64,000 nt of DNA from Weissella bombi. GTDB taxonomy: Bacteria > Bacillota > Bacilli > Lactobacillales > Lactobacillaceae. This document shows positions 2,264 through 22,539 of this stretch, piece after piece (the first letter of the stretch is position 1; each line of letters begins with the position of its first letter). The translations under genes and the position numbers were made by a program. The stretch lies in NCBI RefSeq assembly GCF_900094835.1, contig NZ_FMAO01000002.1, forward strand, positions 1-64,000, written 5' to 3'. The notes under the pieces are model-generated. The model was not told the DNA's origin. It worked only from the letters and a program-made list of their open reading frames with translations, and did no database searches.

Positions 2264-3526
2264 TTAATCCGTTACTTCTTCTCGTAACTCTTGCAATAAT
2301 TTTTTCGCTGATGTGGCATCCATCTTAGGTGCTGCATTTAACTTAGCTACTAATCGATCGATTTCACCCGCTTGTGCACCAACTTGCACTGCTAGAGACT
2401 TTGCTTGCAATGCCATGTGTCCAGCCTGAATACCTGTCGACACTAGCGCCCGCAACGCTGCCAAATTTTGTGCTAAACCAGTCGCCACAATGATGCTTGC
2501 CAGTTCTGTAGAAGTCGGTTCTCCCATAATATGATGATTCAATTTTACTGCAGGTACAATGCCAATAGAACCACCAACAACACCAACTGACATTGGCATC
2601 GTTGTTGTACCAATTAACTGATCAGCAACAACCTGCCAACAGATTAAACCTTGATACTGACCATCATGAGCCGCATAGGCGTGCAAGGCTGCATTAACAG
2701 CTCGCGTATCATTACCACTTGCAAGCACAACCGCTTCAATACCGTTCAAAATACCTTTATTTGCAGTTACCGCGCGATGTGGTGATAAAGTTTCCATATG
2801 ACTAGCTAAAGCTATTTTTTGTGCAACTTCCTCACCAGCTAAACCTTGTTTCGTTGCTAAAGCTGCAACCGGAATGGCCACCTCCGCCGTAATTAATGAT
2901 TCCGTACCATAATTTGATAAGATTGCCATCAAAACTTCGTACCCTTGTTGACGTAATTTTGCTGCAACCGCTTCGGCCATAGTATTAACCGTATTGGCCC
3001 CCATTGCTTCTTTGGTATCTACCAAAACATTCACTGCGACTGTACTGTCATCCATTGTTTCAATCAAAATCTCTTTGGCACCACCACCACGTTTAGCCAT
3101 TGATGGATGTGCATCATTGGCACATTGTAACAATGAACGCTCATGTTCACGTACATAATTTGATAATGCTCGCACATCCGCTACATGAACCAATAAAATT
3201 TGACCACGCATTAAGTGTTTAGAAAATTTAGTCTGCACACCAGTACCTTGACGCATAATTCGGGCACCATTATTAGCAGCCGCAATGACACTAGGTTCTT
3301 CCGTTGCCATGGGCACGATAACTTTTTTGCCATCGACCGGCAAATTTAATAATAATCCGGTTGGTACACCAAAATTATAAATATAATTCTCAATTTGCTG
3401 TTCGCCAATATAATTATAATTTTCTTTGATTAAATCTTGTTCTGCATTTGTTAACTGTTGATTATTGACTAAGATATCAACTCGTTCTGACCAAGAACGC
3501 TTATAAAATTGTTGCCAATCTGCCAT
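2264..3526 (-). CDS. mvaA: hydroxymethylglutaryl-CoA reductase, class II
   Basis: About 420 residues, the normal length for the bacterial class II enzyme. It reduces HMG-CoA to mevalonate, the committed step of the mevalonate route to isopentenyl diphosphate that Gram-positive cocci and lactic acid bacteria use. Visible signatures are ENYIYNFGVPTG near residue 47, VPMATEEPSVIAAANNGA near 75, EAMGANTVNTMAE, GNDTRAVNAALHAYA and the C-terminal GHMALQAKSLA region with the catalytic histidine. Two adjacent ATGs are possible (3529 and 3526); AGAGGA lies 7 bases from the second and only 4 from the first, so 3526 is preferred. First gene of an operon with the unknown protein and the sirtuin. Confidence 0.93.
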   Translation of the reverse strand: MADWQQFYKRSWSERVDILVNNQQLTNAEQDLIKENYNYIGEQQIENYIYNFGVPTGLLLNLPVDGKKVIVPMATEEPSVIAAANNGARIMRQGTGVQTKFSKHLMRGQILLVHVADVRALSNYVREHERSLLQCANDAHPSMAKRGGGAKEILIETMDDSTVAVNVLVDTKEAMGANTVNTMAEAVAAKLRQQGYEVLMAILSNYGTESLITAEVAIPVAALATKQGLAGEEVAQKIALASHMETLSPHRAVTANKGILNGIEAVVLASGNDTRAVNAALHAYAAHDGQYQGLICWQVVADQLIGTTTMPMSVGVVGGSIGIVPAVKLNHHIMGEPTSTELASIIVATGLAQNLAALRALVSTGIQAGHMALQAKSLAVQVGAQAGEIDRLVAKLNAAPKMDATSAKKLLQELREEVTD

Positions 3527-3605
3527 CATTCATTCCTCTTTATTCTATCTTTTATTAGTTTAACAGTTATTAACCTTTTTTTGCGGGACAGCATTTAATT
3601 TTTAT

Positions 3606-17571: not shown

Positions 17572-17850
17572 TTATCCAAATAAAAAAGCCCCACTCCTGT
17601 TAAATACAGAAGCGAGGACATCGCGATACCATTCTGATTTGTTTGCCGATTACTCTAACAAACCTCATCACCCAAAATTGGGTTAGTCTAATAACGGTGA
17701 CAAACCGCCTAACGCTTACAATATCGTTCACGTTACGTGATCATCGGCCATTTTTCATGTGCAATCCTTGTTACGACTCTCATCAACTGTCGTTTTTCTG
17801 TAAACATTTTTGCCATTACTTTCCGAATCATATCATTTTAGTTTTTATTA
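17572..17850 (-). ncRNA. T-box riboswitch, proximal copy
   Basis: Read on the minus strand, CAGAATGGTATCGCGA (17621-17636) matches the T-box core with one substitution (TATCGCG for TACCGCG). It is followed by a 12-bp stem (17606-17617 with 17589-17600) around ATTTA and then CTTTTTTATTT, an intrinsic terminator 20-30 bp before the SDR ribosome site. Upstream sequence has an AGTAATGG segment and a long imperfect stem I. A candidate specifier is ATG in GAAAAATGGCC, matching methionine. The UGGU bulge fits a tRNA with A at the discriminator position, as in tRNA-Met. Confidence 0.82.
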
Positions 17851-17868: not shown

Positions 17869-18150
17869 CAAAAACGCCCTCAAGAAATAAATTTCTCAAG
17901 GGCGTTCATCCGCGGTACCACCTTAATTCCTGGTAAAAACCAGCTTATTATGTCAGCTAACATAAATCATTACTGCATAATTAACTCGATATTGGTAGTC
18001 AACCATCGATGGTTTGCATACGCTCACCAATCTTTTGCTCCAAGACCATCTTCGACTAGCTTCATTATTTGCTCGCACCACCCGCAAATTCTCTGATAAC
18101 GCCACTAATCTACTCATCTTTTCATCGCTTTTTAATTTGATTTTAATATG
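17869..18150 (-). ncRNA. T-box riboswitch, distal copy
   Basis: On the minus strand AAGGTGGTACCGCGGATGAAC (about 17907-17927) is a textbook T-box. It is followed by a 15-bp terminator stem (17892-17906 with 17873-17887) and a T run. Stem I includes an AGTA segment of the specifier-loop motif, the AGAGAA and GGTGGTGCGAGC apical segments and GAAGATGGTCTTGGAG, in which ATG is a candidate specifier. It lies in series with the proximal T-box and shares the same downstream genes, so transcripts must pass two tRNA-sensing terminators. Confidence 0.9.
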
Positions 18151-18241: not shown

Positions 18242-18586
18242 ATGACAAAACAATTCCGTGATAACTTAATTGGATTAATTGCCGCATTTATTTTTATAGT
18301 GGTCATGTTTATGACTGATCATCTTGTTTGGTTACTTTTAATAATTTTCGGTCCTAGCTTATTAATAACTTGGTTACTTAACAAGTATAAGCCTTTAAGA
18401 AAGGGTCCTGAAATTGCTTGGTGGAAAGCAGTACTTATCAATTTTTCCGCTTTTTTCATTGTTCTTATTATCGTTAAAGTTAGACTTAACGACCCTATTT
18501 TTAGTTTTGAGAGTCTAATTGCATTAATTGTATTTCCAATCGCCAATGCACTAGGGATATTAAGCCATCGTTCTAATCCAAACTAA
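18242..18586 (+). CDS. small membrane protein of unknown function
   Basis: 114 residues with three or four hydrophobic helices (about 9-25, 28-46, 62-80 and 88-105), a basic loop (NKYKPLRKG) between helices 2 and 3 and no recognisable domain. GAGGGGGC precedes the ATG. It diverges from the T-box operon. A degraded copy of its 3' end seems to recur at about 19839-19860, on the far side of the Fic gene. Confidence 0.6.
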   Translation: MTKQFRDNLIGLIAAFIFIVVMFMTDHLVWLLLIIFGPSLLITWLLNKYKPLRKGPEIAWWKAVLINFSAFFIVLIIVKVRLNDPIFSFESLIALIVFPIANALGILSHRSNPN

Positions 18587-18649
18587 TCCTACAAACAGCT
18601 AAAAAGGAGGCCGGAACACAATGTTCTAGCCTCCTTTTACAATGAGCAG
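18560..18649. repeat. 90-bp direct repeat, copy 1
   Basis: This copy and 19839-19928 are identical at about 84 of 90 positions, in the same orientation, offset by 1279 bp. It covers the last codons of the small membrane protein gene and the whole following terminator hairpin. The two copies bracket the Fic gene and its operator. Confidence 0.95.
18601..18638. terminator. terminator after small membrane protein and Fic genes
   Basis: AAAAGGAGGC pairs with GCCTCCTTTT around a second stem GAACA/TGTTC. A and T runs on both sides make it bidirectional for the convergent genes at 18586 and 18684. Confidence 0.88.
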
Positions 18650-18683
18650 TTTATATTGGTCATGTTTATGATGTACCTAACGA

Positions 18684-19733
18684 TTAATTTATTAGCTGAT
18701 ACTTAGTTGAGCGCCCTTGGCCAACTTTTTGAATCTTATGCTCTGTTTGTAACTCAGCCAAGGCCCGTTCTATCGTTCGTTGGCTGATGTCTGGCAATAG
18801 GTTCTCAAAGTCAGCTCTGCTTAGGGGTTCAAAAGACTTTTCTAATTTTTCTATTAGTCGCTCTGCTGGGGTTAGTTCCCGATTAATAATAATCTCGAAG
18901 CGCTCTGAGAAATTTTCATATGCTCGCAAAATAATTCCCACAAAATAGCGGACAAAAGGTGTATAGTCCTGCTCATTTTCCAACCATCCTACAGAACTTG
19001 CTTGTAATACTTCGTAGTAAGTTTGTTTCGATTCCTCAATCATCATCTCAATACTAATGTACTTGCCGACTAAATAGCCCGACTTGTACAGCAATAACAG
19101 TGTTAATAAACGTGACATCCGACCATTTCCATCACTAAACGGATGAATCGAAAGAAAGTCCAAAACAAAGCAGGGAATCAATAATAATGGATCTATTTCG
19201 TCTTTCTGAATGGCTTGATTGTATTGGTAACACAATTCTTTGATTAAATCCGGTGTTAAATAAGCTGGAGCTGGTACAAAGCGAACTTGTTCGCTACCAT
19301 CCATATTCTTCTCTGTGATAACATTATCGCTACTCTTTAACTTTCCTTTATAATTTTTACCTGAATAATTATATAGGTTTTTATGTAATGTTAAAATATC
19401 GTTTGGTACCACTCGAATATATTCATAACTGTCATGAATAAGTTTCAAAACATCTCGATAACCGGCTATTTCTTCTTCATCTCGGTTCCGTGGTTTGATC
19501 TTTTCAGATACGATTTTCTTCAAGCGACCATCTGTTGTTGCAATTCCTTCGATTTTATTGGAAGCCTCTGTACTTTGAATCAAAGCCAAATCCGTTAGCT
19601 TATTTAATATCTCCGGTTTTGTTGTAACATATAGTTCTTGCTTTCCTTTATATTCATGAATCTTGGTCAGCATATTCAACAAATCATAGCTAAAGGTGAG
19701 TTTAACCAACTCATTATAATCAAATTTTTTCAC
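18684..19733 (-). CDS. Fic-domain protein with built-in inhibitory helix and C-terminal winged helix
   Basis: About 350 residues. The catalytic loop HPFSDGNGRMSR (199-210 counted from the ATG at 19739) has every residue needed to transfer AMP to a hydroxyl group. The inhibitory motif S60-N-K-I-E64-G65 lies on the N-terminal side, as in class II Fic proteins, so activity is probably held off within the chain. The last 70 residues (LSRADFENLLPDISQRTIERALAELQ) look like a winged helix. Either the ATG at 19739 (three bases after AGAGG) or the GTG at 19733 (nine bases) could start it; spacing favours GTG. It is flanked by direct repeats and has an unusual operator, suggesting recent gain and autoregulation. 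Confidence 0.85.
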   Translation of the reverse strand: MKKFDYNELVKLTFSYDLLNMLTKIHEYKGKQELYVTTKPEILNKLTDLALIQSTEASNKIEGIATTDGRLKKIVSEKIKPRNRDEEEIAGYRDVLKLIHDSYEYIRVVPNDILTLHKNLYNYSGKNYKGKLKSSDNVITEKNMDGSEQVRFVPAPAYLTPDLIKELCYQYNQAIQKDEIDPLLLIPCFVLDFLSIHPFSDGNGRMSRLLTLLLLYKSGYLVGKYISIEMMIEESKQTYYEVLQASSVGWLENEQDYTPFVRYFVGIILRAYENFSERFEIIINRELTPAERLIEKLEKSFEPLSRADFENLLPDISQRTIERALAELQTEHKIQKVGQGRSTKYQLIN

Positions 19734-19802
19734 CGCCATCCACCTCTTTTCTCCGCCATTTTAACTAATTTGGCGGAGAAAAACAAGTAGTGGCGGTGAA
19801 AA
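19727..19802. promoter_or_regulatory. four-box symmetric operator and promoter of the Fic gene
   Basis: Four 12-bp boxes form two nested perfect inverted repeats sharing one dyad axis at 19764.5: outer TTTTCACCGCCA (19727-19738) with TGGCGGTGAAAA (19791-19802), inner TTTTCTCCGCCA (19747-19758) with TGGCGGAGAAAA (19771-19782). Box starts on each side are 20 bp apart, so they face the same side of the helix. Minus-strand TTGTTT (19781-19786) and TAAAAT (19758-19763), 17 bp apart, lie within it. The lowest box includes the start codon region. Confidence 0.9.
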
Positions 19803-19838
19803 TCAACTAGAAATTATTTCTTTCACTGCAATTTGCTA

Positions 19839-19928
19839 TTAAGGCGTCGTTCTAATACAAACTAATCCTACAAACAGCTAAAAAGGAGGCCGGAACACAA
19901 CATTCTAGCCTCCTTTTACAATAAGCAG
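19839..19928. repeat. 90-bp direct repeat, copy 2
   Basis: Second copy of the repeat at 18560-18649. It carries what looks like the last codons of the small membrane protein gene, without the rest of that gene, and then the terminator that serves gyrA. Confidence 0.95.
19879..19917. terminator. gyrA terminator
   Basis: Same AAAAGGAGGC/GCCTCCTTTT hairpin as at 18601-18638, about 43 bp after the gyrA stop codon on the minus strand. The inner stem is weaker than in the other copy because two bases differ. Confidence 0.85.
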
Positions 19929-19959
19929 ATCAAATTCATGCAAAACTGCTTATTAATAT

Positions 19960-22539
19960 TTACTTTTCTTCATCGTCTTCTGCGCGTTGCAATAATTCAG
20001 CAACTTCACTTGGTTGTTCACCATCTTCAGGCGCCGTTGGCAAATTATCAGAATTTGTTTCATCTGCATTTTCCGCTGACGCTGTCTCCTCTTCAGGAAC
20101 GACGTGTTCAACCTTAGCAAAAGTTGATACCGAAGACCCATCATCCAAACGGATAACACGTACACCTTGTGTTGCACGACCTGTTTCAGAAATTGAATCA
20201 ACAGTGAAGCGAATCATAACCCCTTTGTTAGTGGTCAACATGATATCCTCACTACCATCAACAACCTTCAAACCAGCTAATGGTCCGTTCTTTTCAGTAA
20301 CTTGAGCGGTCTTGATACCTTTACCACCACGACCCTTAATTGGGTATTGATCAACAGGTGTTTGCTTACCATAACCATTCTCAGTAATAATCAAAACATG
20401 GCCATTTTGAGTGAGCACTTGTGCACCAACTACGTAATCATCTGGACGAAGCGTAATACCACGAACTCCTGCAGCTGAACGTCCCATTGAACGGACTGCT
20501 TGACTATTAAATGAAACGGCATATCCACCATGAGTACCGATAATAATATTTTGTGAATCATCAGTAATCAATACGTTAATCAATTCATCCCCATCGTGAA
20601 GGTTAATTGCCTTCAAACCATGGGTACGAATATTACCAAATTCATTAACTGGTGTCCGCTTTACAACACCTTTGCGCGTCGTAAAGAATAGGTAGTCCTC
20701 ACTTTCGGCAGCATCACCACGGACATTGATAATAGCTTGAATACTCTCACCACTCTCAATACCTAACAAGTTAACTACTGGGATTCCCTTAGCAGTACGA
20801 CCATATTCAGGTATCTCATAACCCTTCATCTTGTAAACTTTACCTGAATTAGTAAAGAACAATAGGGTATCGTGTGTTGATGTACCAATTAGTTCATCGA
20901 TGAAGTCATCATTGTTAACACCCATACCTTGAATACCACGACCACCACGGTTTTGTGCGCGGAAGTCAGCTTGTGGCATACGCTTAATATATCCAGCATG
21001 TGTTAGTGACACAATAATGTCTTCTTCTTCAATCAAATCTTCATCTTCAATGCTGGTTACGTCACCGATTTGCAATTCAGTACGACGAGCATCCCCAAAT
21101 TTATCTTGAATTTCAAGTAATTCAGTATAGATGATTTCATCAATTCTTTCTGGCTTAGCCAAAATATCCTTGAAGTCAGTAATTGAAGCCAACAAACCTT
21201 GATATTCTTTTTCAATCTTATCGCGTTCCAAACCAGTTAAACGAACCAAACGCATATCCAAGATAGCTTGTGATTGTTTATCTGACAAAGCGTAATCTGA
21301 CATCAACTTTTGCTTAGCAATTTCTGATGTTTGTGATTGACGAATAATTGTAATAATTGCATCAATATGATCAAGCGCAATTCGCAATCCTTCCAAAATG
21401 TGAGCACGCGCTTGCGCCTTACGCAAATCAAATTCAGTACGACGACGAACGACCTTTTGTTGATGATCCAAATATGCAACCAACATCTCTTTTAGACTTA
21501 GTAGCTTTGGACGACCATCTTCAACTGCCAACATGTTGAAACTAAAGCCAGTTTGCATCAAGGTATTCTTGTACAAATTGTTTAGCACAACTGATGCTGA
21601 TACGTCACGACGAATCTCAATTGCAATTCGTGTTCCTTCTTGGTCAGACTCATCATTAACACCAGTAATACCTTCAATACGCTTATCACGACCTAATTCA
21701 GCAATACGCTCAATTAATTTAGCCTTGTTAACCATGTAAGGCAACTCATTGACGATAATGTGTTCTTTTCCAGATTTTTCAGTTTCAATTTCCGTCTTTG
21801 CACGGACGGTTACGACACCTTTTCCAGTTTCGTAAGCTTTACGAATACCAGATTTACCCATCACTATTGCACCAGTTGGGAAATCTGGTCCTGGAATTGC
21901 TTCCATCAACTCAGCAACCGTAATATCAGGGTTCTTCATCAACATATGAAGACCTGAAATTACTTCACCTAAATTGTGCGGTGGAATATTAGTTGCCATT
22001 CCAACGGCAATTCCATTAGCACCATTGACTAGCAAATTAGGAAAACGTGCTGGCAAAACAACCGGTTCACGATCAGTACCATCATAATTATCCTGGAAAT
22101 CAATTGTATCTTTATTGATATCACGCAACATTTCAGTAGAAATTTTACTCAAACGTGCTTCGGTATAACGCATAGCGGCAGCTGGGTCACCATCGACTGA
22201 TCCAAAGTTTCCGTGACCGTCGACTAACATATAACGATATGAAAAGTCTTGTGCCATACGAACCATTGAATCATAGATTGCTGAGTCTCCGTGTGGGTGG
22301 TACTTTCCCATAACATCCCCAACAATACGTGCTGACTTCTTATGTTGCTTATCAGGTGTAACCCCTAATTCATTCATCCCATACAAAATACGACGATGAA
22401 CTGGTTTCAACCCATCGCGCACATCAGGTAACGCACGTGCCACAATAACTGACATGGCATAATCCAAGAAAGATGTTCGCATTTGCTCGCCAAGTTTGGC
22501 AGGCTTAATGCGGCTGTTTTTTTGTTCTTCTTCAGCCAT
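19960..22539 (-). CDS. gyrA: DNA gyrase subunit A
   Basis: 859 residues. The strand-cutting tyrosine is Y125 in AAAMRYTE. The quinolone-determining region [10 protein letters not shown] keeps Ser86 and Asp90, the unsubstituted (sensitive) residues. The C-terminal beta-pinwheel begins at the GyrA box, which here reads QNRGGRG instead of QRRGGRG; the chain ends in an acidic tail rich in Glu and Asp. With GyrB it introduces negative supercoils. It follows gyrB by 44 bp in the yaaA-recF-gyrB-gyrA cluster. Confidence 0.98.

Follow-up and report, generated by a model that had tools for sequence, protein, structure and literature searches.

The fic locus and its product

The window, as we call the whole stretch of DNA analysed, is 64,000 nucleotides of Weissella bombi DNA (contig NZ_FMAO01000002.1, positions 1 to 64,000). 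It carries a minus-strand fic gene (18684-19739) for a protein of 351 aa in which a Fic domain was detected with Pfam. The HPFx[D/E]GNGRxxR active site is present as HPFSDGNGRMSR (H199-R210), and H199, P200, F201, D203, N205, G206, R207, S209 and R210 were invariant in 56 family members. The N-terminal inhibitory helix, [S/T]xxxE[G/N], is present as S60-N-K-I-E64-G65 within the class II motif STEASNKIEG, with S60, N61, I63, E64 and G65 invariant among the 56 members. By both sequence motifs the window protein is a class II Fic and a predicted AMP-transferase.

An AlphaFold2 model made with 56 sequences (mean pLDDT 91.2) placed a winged helix (wHTH) at the C-terminus, with helices at residues 291-301, 308-314 and 320-332 and a two-stranded wing (336-339 and 346-349). 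The predicted recognition helix, residues 320-332, was assigned from the model and from covariation; its codons lie at 18744-18782 on the minus strand, with R325 at 18765-18767. With E<=0.01 as the limit, 29 of the 56 family members matched the transcription-regulator wHTH profile DIP2311-like_C; the window protein scored 20.9 bits, under the cut-off of 27. PADLOC's SoFic profile (PDLC03963) matched residues 24-347, near the whole length, at E=1.5e-37, and the score for the NCBIfam SoFic equivalog was 53 bits versus the 550 required. The closest solved relative by sequence is 8uqu (E=3e-82), which is the N-terminal domain only of a Bordetella bronchiseptica Fic; its Fic domain lies within an rmsd of 1.4-2.1 Å of the window model. 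A second, distant Fic gene is found in the same genome (G000:C17:130719-131000, E=1e-5, in a 455-aa frame). No small antitoxin gene of the type II toxin-antitoxin kind (Phd-Doc/VbhAT) was found beside fic among ORFs of at least 25 aa; on the fic strand, such ORFs in 18560-19960 are fic, two frames inside fic, gyrA, and one frame inside gyrA.

The fic cassette lies between 100-bp direct repeats that are 91% identical. The left copy (18558-18657, plus strand) takes in the end of a small membrane ORF plus a hairpin, and the right copy is at 19837-19936 (plus strand). A relative of the same genus, G019, has a single repeat copy there and no such Fic. Among 14 close Fic copies the mean identity is >0.8 as far as about the upstream outer box described below and drops to about 0.4 beyond it, and longer flanks are common to subgroups of these copies. 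Fic homologues are also found on plasmids, and one (L286, locus 2507-3580 of phage PV036453.1) adjoins terminase genes and is annotated as hypothetical. Further left in the window, tandem T-box leaders on the minus strand (17605-17840 and 17895-18134; Rfam RF00230, 95.7 and 94.2 bits) sit upstream of leftward genes starting near 17.5 kb.

Four boxes at the fic promoter

Four 12-bp boxes, all exact matches to TGGCGGWGAAAA, surround the 5' end of fic. The inner pair consists of two copies of TGGCGGAGAAAA (subtype GGAG), one at 19747-19758 on the minus strand and the other at 19771-19782 on the plus strand. The outer pair consists of two copies of TGGCGGTGAAAA (subtype GGTG), at 19727-19738 (minus strand) and 19791-19802 (plus strand). 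Both pairs are centred on 19764.5, and the step from inner to outer box is 20 bp on either side, so that a 12-N12-12 repeat is nested in a 12-N52-12 repeat. The first-pass annotation had described four boxes with one dyad axis and 20-bp phasing, and this arrangement stands: the window has one axis with two perfect 12-bp arm pairs, and none of 40 local mononucleotide shuffles had any. These four boxes are also the only exact ones in the 1.82-Mb genome (29 contigs). One-mismatch sites elsewhere in the genome numbered 17 versus 13 for a reversed control pattern, which is no clear genome-wide excess, and a regulon of box sites in this genome was rejected on the same counts. With two mismatches allowed, the pattern was unenriched in the window (11 versus 9.6 expected). 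It is the arrangement and exactness of the window boxes that are significant; loose matches are not.

The promoter elements, all on the minus strand, were picked by eye. The candidate -10, TAAAAT (19758-19763, 5/6 to consensus), lies near the dyad, and a 17-bp spacer separates it from a weak candidate -35, TTGTTT (19781-19786, 3/6 to consensus). This TTGTTT-17-TAAAAT promoter was missing from the automatic promoter scan. The inner downstream box overlaps the last base of the -10; the inner upstream box lies within the spacer, its outer end overlapping the -35, and the outer upstream box is upstream of the -35. A putative ribosome-binding site, AAGAGGTGG (19740-19748), falls between and partly within the downstream boxes. 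The Fic ATG is at 19739-19737, so the outer downstream box overlaps the start codon, as had been noted earlier.

That annotation had also treated the two box subtypes as a symmetric design, a view we reject. Among 14 loci with CCGCCA boxes (the window and L009-L021), the upstream outer box is GGTG in the window only, GGAG in 12, and decayed in one. The downstream outer box is GGTG in all 14, and it doubles as codons for M-A-V-K, the first residues of the protein.

Conserved geometry upstream of Fic homologues

Homologous loci were collected by a genome scan of species, of which the best 80 of 130 loci were kept, and by searching further in 100 relatives and in 299 genomes from the Lachnospira family, 112 from Bifidobacterium and 198 from the Bullifex phylum. 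By tblastn 214 loci were obtained, and 204 of these were kept (at least 200 bits, an ORF of at least 310 aa and a usable start); with the window the set came to 205 loci, or 138 after 90% redundancy removal (window included). Seven partial matches were left out of the homologue set, and four of them were looked at later. An apparent loss of the wHTH in L254-L256 was uninformative, since these homologues stop at contig ends. The fic gene had no DNA match in E. coli genomes.

Upstream of the 138 non-redundant Fic homologues, every spacing from 10 to 71 bp was scanned for inverted repeats, without favouring any. The centre spacings peaked broadly at three places, near 24, 44 and 64 bp; in shuffles, any one spacing was found in about one locus. 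With arms of at least 9/10, spacing 23 was found in 82 loci (shuffle mean 0.8), 45 in 42 (0.5) and 63 in 15 (0.7). In terms of the window's boxes, the peaks stand for the inner, the crossed and the outer pairs. An inner pair of at least 9/12 was present in 127 of the 138 homologues and absent in 11, and in 94 it matched at least 10/12 at the expected place; the box register was set partly by a TTWTC preference. Records for these 94 loci, some of them metagenome bins, are titled Bacillota, Bifidobacterium, Kiritimatiellae and Spirochaetales, which we take to be four phyla. A -10 of at least 5/6 lay between the inner boxes in 83% of the 94 loci versus 23% in random placements, and a -35 of at least 4/6 was seen in just 34.

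Clades differ in the letters of the inverted repeats that surround the -10: Enterococcus loci have TTTTCTCCGCCA, those of Bifidobacterium TTTTCTGCATCA, those of clostridia TTTTCTCGTAAA and TTTTCCCTTAAA, and those of Lachnospira TTATCGCCTAAT, among others. Copies of a locus's own box exactly 20 bp outward were found upstream in 36 of the 94 loci (0.2 expected) and downstream in 34 (0.6 expected). Offsets 19 and 21 had 6-10 loci each, and the other offsets from 13 to 32 had 0-1, except upstream 31 and 32 (3 and 4) and downstream 23 and 32 (4 and 6). With offsets of 18-22 allowed, 65 of the 94 loci have at least one outer box: four boxes are present in 36, a third box upstream in 17 and a third box downstream in 12. 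The remaining 29 have two boxes. Two plasmid copies outside the set, from Lactobacillus kefiranofaciens and Lactiplantibacillus plantarum, showed four boxes with 20-bp steps by eye. The presence of boxes upstream of Fic homologues had been set beforehand as a test, and boxes proved to be conserved there.

Genomic distribution of operator sites

The exact operator pattern occurred in 25 of 112 Bifidobacterium genomes, once in each, and the reversed control gave none. Eighteen of the 25 sites are just upstream of a Fic gene and seven are in genomes without Fic at threshold; two of these seven have clear Fic relics and a third a weak one. The exact site was missing in 11 of 29 Fic-positive Bifidobacterium genomes. 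Among Lactobacillales, 15 of 395 genomes had a site, each with the 12-bp spacer; 13 sites adjoin Fic (two of them broken copies), one adjoins a relic, and one stands without either. Operator sites are thus mostly dedicated to Fic genes. Nine sites lack a full-length or interrupted Fic, and short relics were found at four of these (L265, L277 and L278, with a weak one at L275 of 22 residues, E=1.8e-4). Near the other operator-like pairs (L273, L274, L276 and L279 in Bifidobacterium, and L267) neither a Fic gene nor a relic was found; these pairs could be scars or another regulator's sites. Operators can outlive the gene: inner pairs are intact beside the interrupted Fic genes of L269 and L271 and beside the four relics.

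Covariation of box letters and the winged helix

A noisy partial-Mantel ranking placed residue 322 first, then 294, 317 and 291, with catalytic-domain columns high too; columns of the wHTH came out higher than the others (Mann-Whitney p=1.8e-4, the columns not being independent). MI-APC and a tree-aware test followed. MI-APC was computed for the 94 loci (effective number 32.8) over 351x12 = 4212 residue-base pairs, and the top pair was R325, in the predicted recognition helix, with box base 11 (z 5.8). Base 11 was C in 39 of the 42 loci with R325 (in both arms in 36) and in none of the 52 without R. In all 127 loci, weak pairs included, C11 was found in 46 of 54 R325 loci, and so was missing in eight, and in 0 of 73 non-R loci. 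With 70% clustering the counts were 17/19 with R325 versus 0/15 without. By the automatic rule, held-out loci had C11 in three of four R loci and none of three non-R loci; at the failing R locus the automatically chosen pair looks wrong by eye. The held-out Acidovorax homologue had no comparable box pair.

On a tree of residues 1-285, a model in which R325 and C11 are dependent was favoured (Pagel-type; LR 18.9, p=8e-4). R325 and base 11 have four parsimony changes each, so the tree signal rests on about four changes. The tree-aware test was also run on 120 of 284 variable columns, chosen for the strength of their simple association, and residue 325 ranked first with LR 15.7 (faster optimiser); the next column reached 14.0, so its tree-aware lead is small. 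Simple association sets residue 325 apart more widely (phi 0.94, next 0.76). The covariation signal is not clean. The next MI-APC pairs are outside the wHTH (residue 159 with base 10, z 5.3; residue 44 with base 7, z 5.2), and of the top 40 pairs 11 fall in residues 303-347, where about five were expected, and 29 outside the wHTH. A suggestive pairing of R321 with box bases 9/10 is left unclaimed because it comes mostly from one clade. The R325-C11 pairing suggests an arginine-guanine contact.

Paralogues within one genome form 16 pairs, four of which include a locus without a called box. In 10 of the 12 comparable pairs the boxes differ; those of L225/L229 are the same and those of L157/L178 nearly so. 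The letters of a locus's box go with the winged helix of its own Fic protein.

Proposed autorepression and alternative readings

We consider it highly probable that the boxes are an operator at which a mobile class II Fic of the SoFic-like kind uses its wHTH to repress the promoter of its own gene. Sequence, geometry, conservation, covariation and site distribution are the directly supported parts of this reading, and we infer from them that the Fic protein binds and represses, that it does so cooperatively, and what purpose this would serve. Each box would be a half-site, occupied by the C-terminal winged helix of one protomer. In the inner inverted pair the centres are 24 bp apart; this pair would bracket the -10 and block RNA polymerase. 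Promoter occlusion is the likely mode of repression. The outer pair, about two helical turns out, may recruit more Fic cooperatively and so cover the -35 side and the start codon, the cooperativity being suggested by the spacing. The inner pair would fit a C2 dimer. The outer boxes are in direct orientation relative to their inner neighbours and would need a second set of protein or a flexible wHTH. Two dimers, one to each nested pair, would be a candidate arrangement, but it would be awkward for one C2 dimer to reach across the 64-bp outer pair, which is about 215 Å if the DNA is straight, because the two helices of CccR are 70.2 Å apart (PMC9755527). Gene and operator would form one mobile unit that carries its own brake into a new host. 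The wHTH and the address would change together, so that most Fic copies would be insulated from other copies. The purpose would be to hold a potentially toxic SoFic-like AMP-transferase low, above all on entering a new host. The first-pass annotation had likewise proposed control of the Fic promoter, perhaps by the protein's own winged helix. Conservation and covariation now speak for such control, most likely by that winged helix, and the annotation's interpretation is supported in part, its symmetric two-subtype design having been set aside.

Another reading, which we find possible but unlikely, is that the inner pair alone autorepresses and the outer boxes are functionless, e.g., duplication remnants. 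The 29 loci without any outer box are in keeping with it, as are the differences between outer and inner boxes, which are more frequent at positions 1, 2, 4, 5 and 9. However, outer boxes have the 20-bp placement on either side even in clades that are far apart and have different box letters, and drift would not preserve this.

It is improbable that a host transcription factor, rather than the Fic protein, reads the boxes. Five operator sites at which no Fic relic was found speak for such a factor. On the other hand, from phylum to phylum the letters of the boxes vary together with the Fic wHTH, paralogues in one genome mostly differ in their boxes, exact boxes lie nowhere else in the W. bombi genome, and CccR provides a precedent for reading by the Fic protein itself (PMC9755527).

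We think it a long shot that the operator parks DNA-bound Fic oligomers, either autoinhibited or deAMPylating, with loss of the site both releasing the enzyme and derepressing the gene. If this were true, the operator would be an anti-phage trigger, e.g., for phage degrading host DNA, and the family would comprise many guard enzymes, each self-addressed, that use a residue-base code able to evolve.

Very improbably, the repeats belong to a mobile element by which the Fic gene was moved, as its ends or its target sites. The drop in identity at about the upstream outer box and the 100-bp direct repeats flanking the gene would fit such a role, but the boxes are internal to the cassette, away from its junctions at 19837 and 18657, and across the family a -10 lies between the inner boxes. 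Action of the repeats as RNA, in an attenuator or a ribosome-site hairpin, is hardly credible and was rejected: the downstream boxes do overlap the ribosome-binding site and start codon, but a transcript from the assumed -10 would begin in or beside the inner downstream box, leaving the upstream arms untranscribed, the probable 5' end of the transcript is no more stably folded than shuffled sequence (z -0.76), and Rfam at the gathering threshold has no match at the operator site.

Relation to known Fic systems

The earlier statement that no operator is described for Fic proteins does not hold. CccR of Yersinia pseudotuberculosis, a Fic-wHTH protein reported in 2022, binds AGATAATCAT-N26-ATGATAATCT in its own promoter, as seen by DNase footprint, and this site is made up of two 10-bp inverted repeats that lie 26 bp apart; CccR represses itself, and the dimer is required (PMC9755527; also treated in review PMC12894286). 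The window protein has the CccR architecture of Fic plus C-terminal wHTH, and the two systems share a class II Fic and inverted repeats near the -35 and -10 of the protein's own promoter. They differ in layout: CccR has one 10-N26-10 pair with centres 36 bp apart, a spacing that the window boxes do not have, whereas the window has inner centres 24 bp apart plus an outer pair. The CccR box also differs from that of the window, and CccR is secreted by T6SS (PMC9755527). The four-box form is undescribed in the available part of the CccR account (PMC9755527).

Sofic, a toxic Fic that acts against phages, comes with a small antitoxin (PMC12249575; PMC11514479 for SoFic of S. thermophilus). EcSofic is a class II Fic like the window protein and is a dimer; it has a 47-residue downstream antitoxin, AS1, whereas the window has no counterpart of at least 25 aa, as judged by size only (PMC12249575). 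The accessible text of these two accounts makes no mention of an operator (PMC12249575, PMC11514479). CbFic2 of Coxiella burnetii, a class II Fic with a C-terminal wHTH like the window protein, is a dimer that binds random DNA, which stimulates its activity; random DNA was used, and the available portion of that account defines no operator (PMC10628234). The account of fusobacterial Fic families, so far as it is available, has nothing on operators (PMC11796403). A four-box or family-wide Fic operator was not found in the portions of the open-access literature at hand, a body that leaves out subscription papers and preprints. Fic autorepression was thus known already from CccR, and what is new here is the four-box architecture, its wide conservation, and the covariation of address and reader.

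In sum, a large family found in several phyla seems to follow the logic of CccR, its four boxes being conserved in their geometry. This makes candidate self-addressed repressor-operator pairs of many SoFic-like genes that have had little study and are often mobile. Cognate promoters would be findable from sequence, the family would offer a set of mutually distinct repressors, and the R325/base 11 pairing is directly testable. It may also be asked whether binding to the operator affects AMPylation in turn, much as random DNA affects CbFic2 in the account available (PMC10628234).
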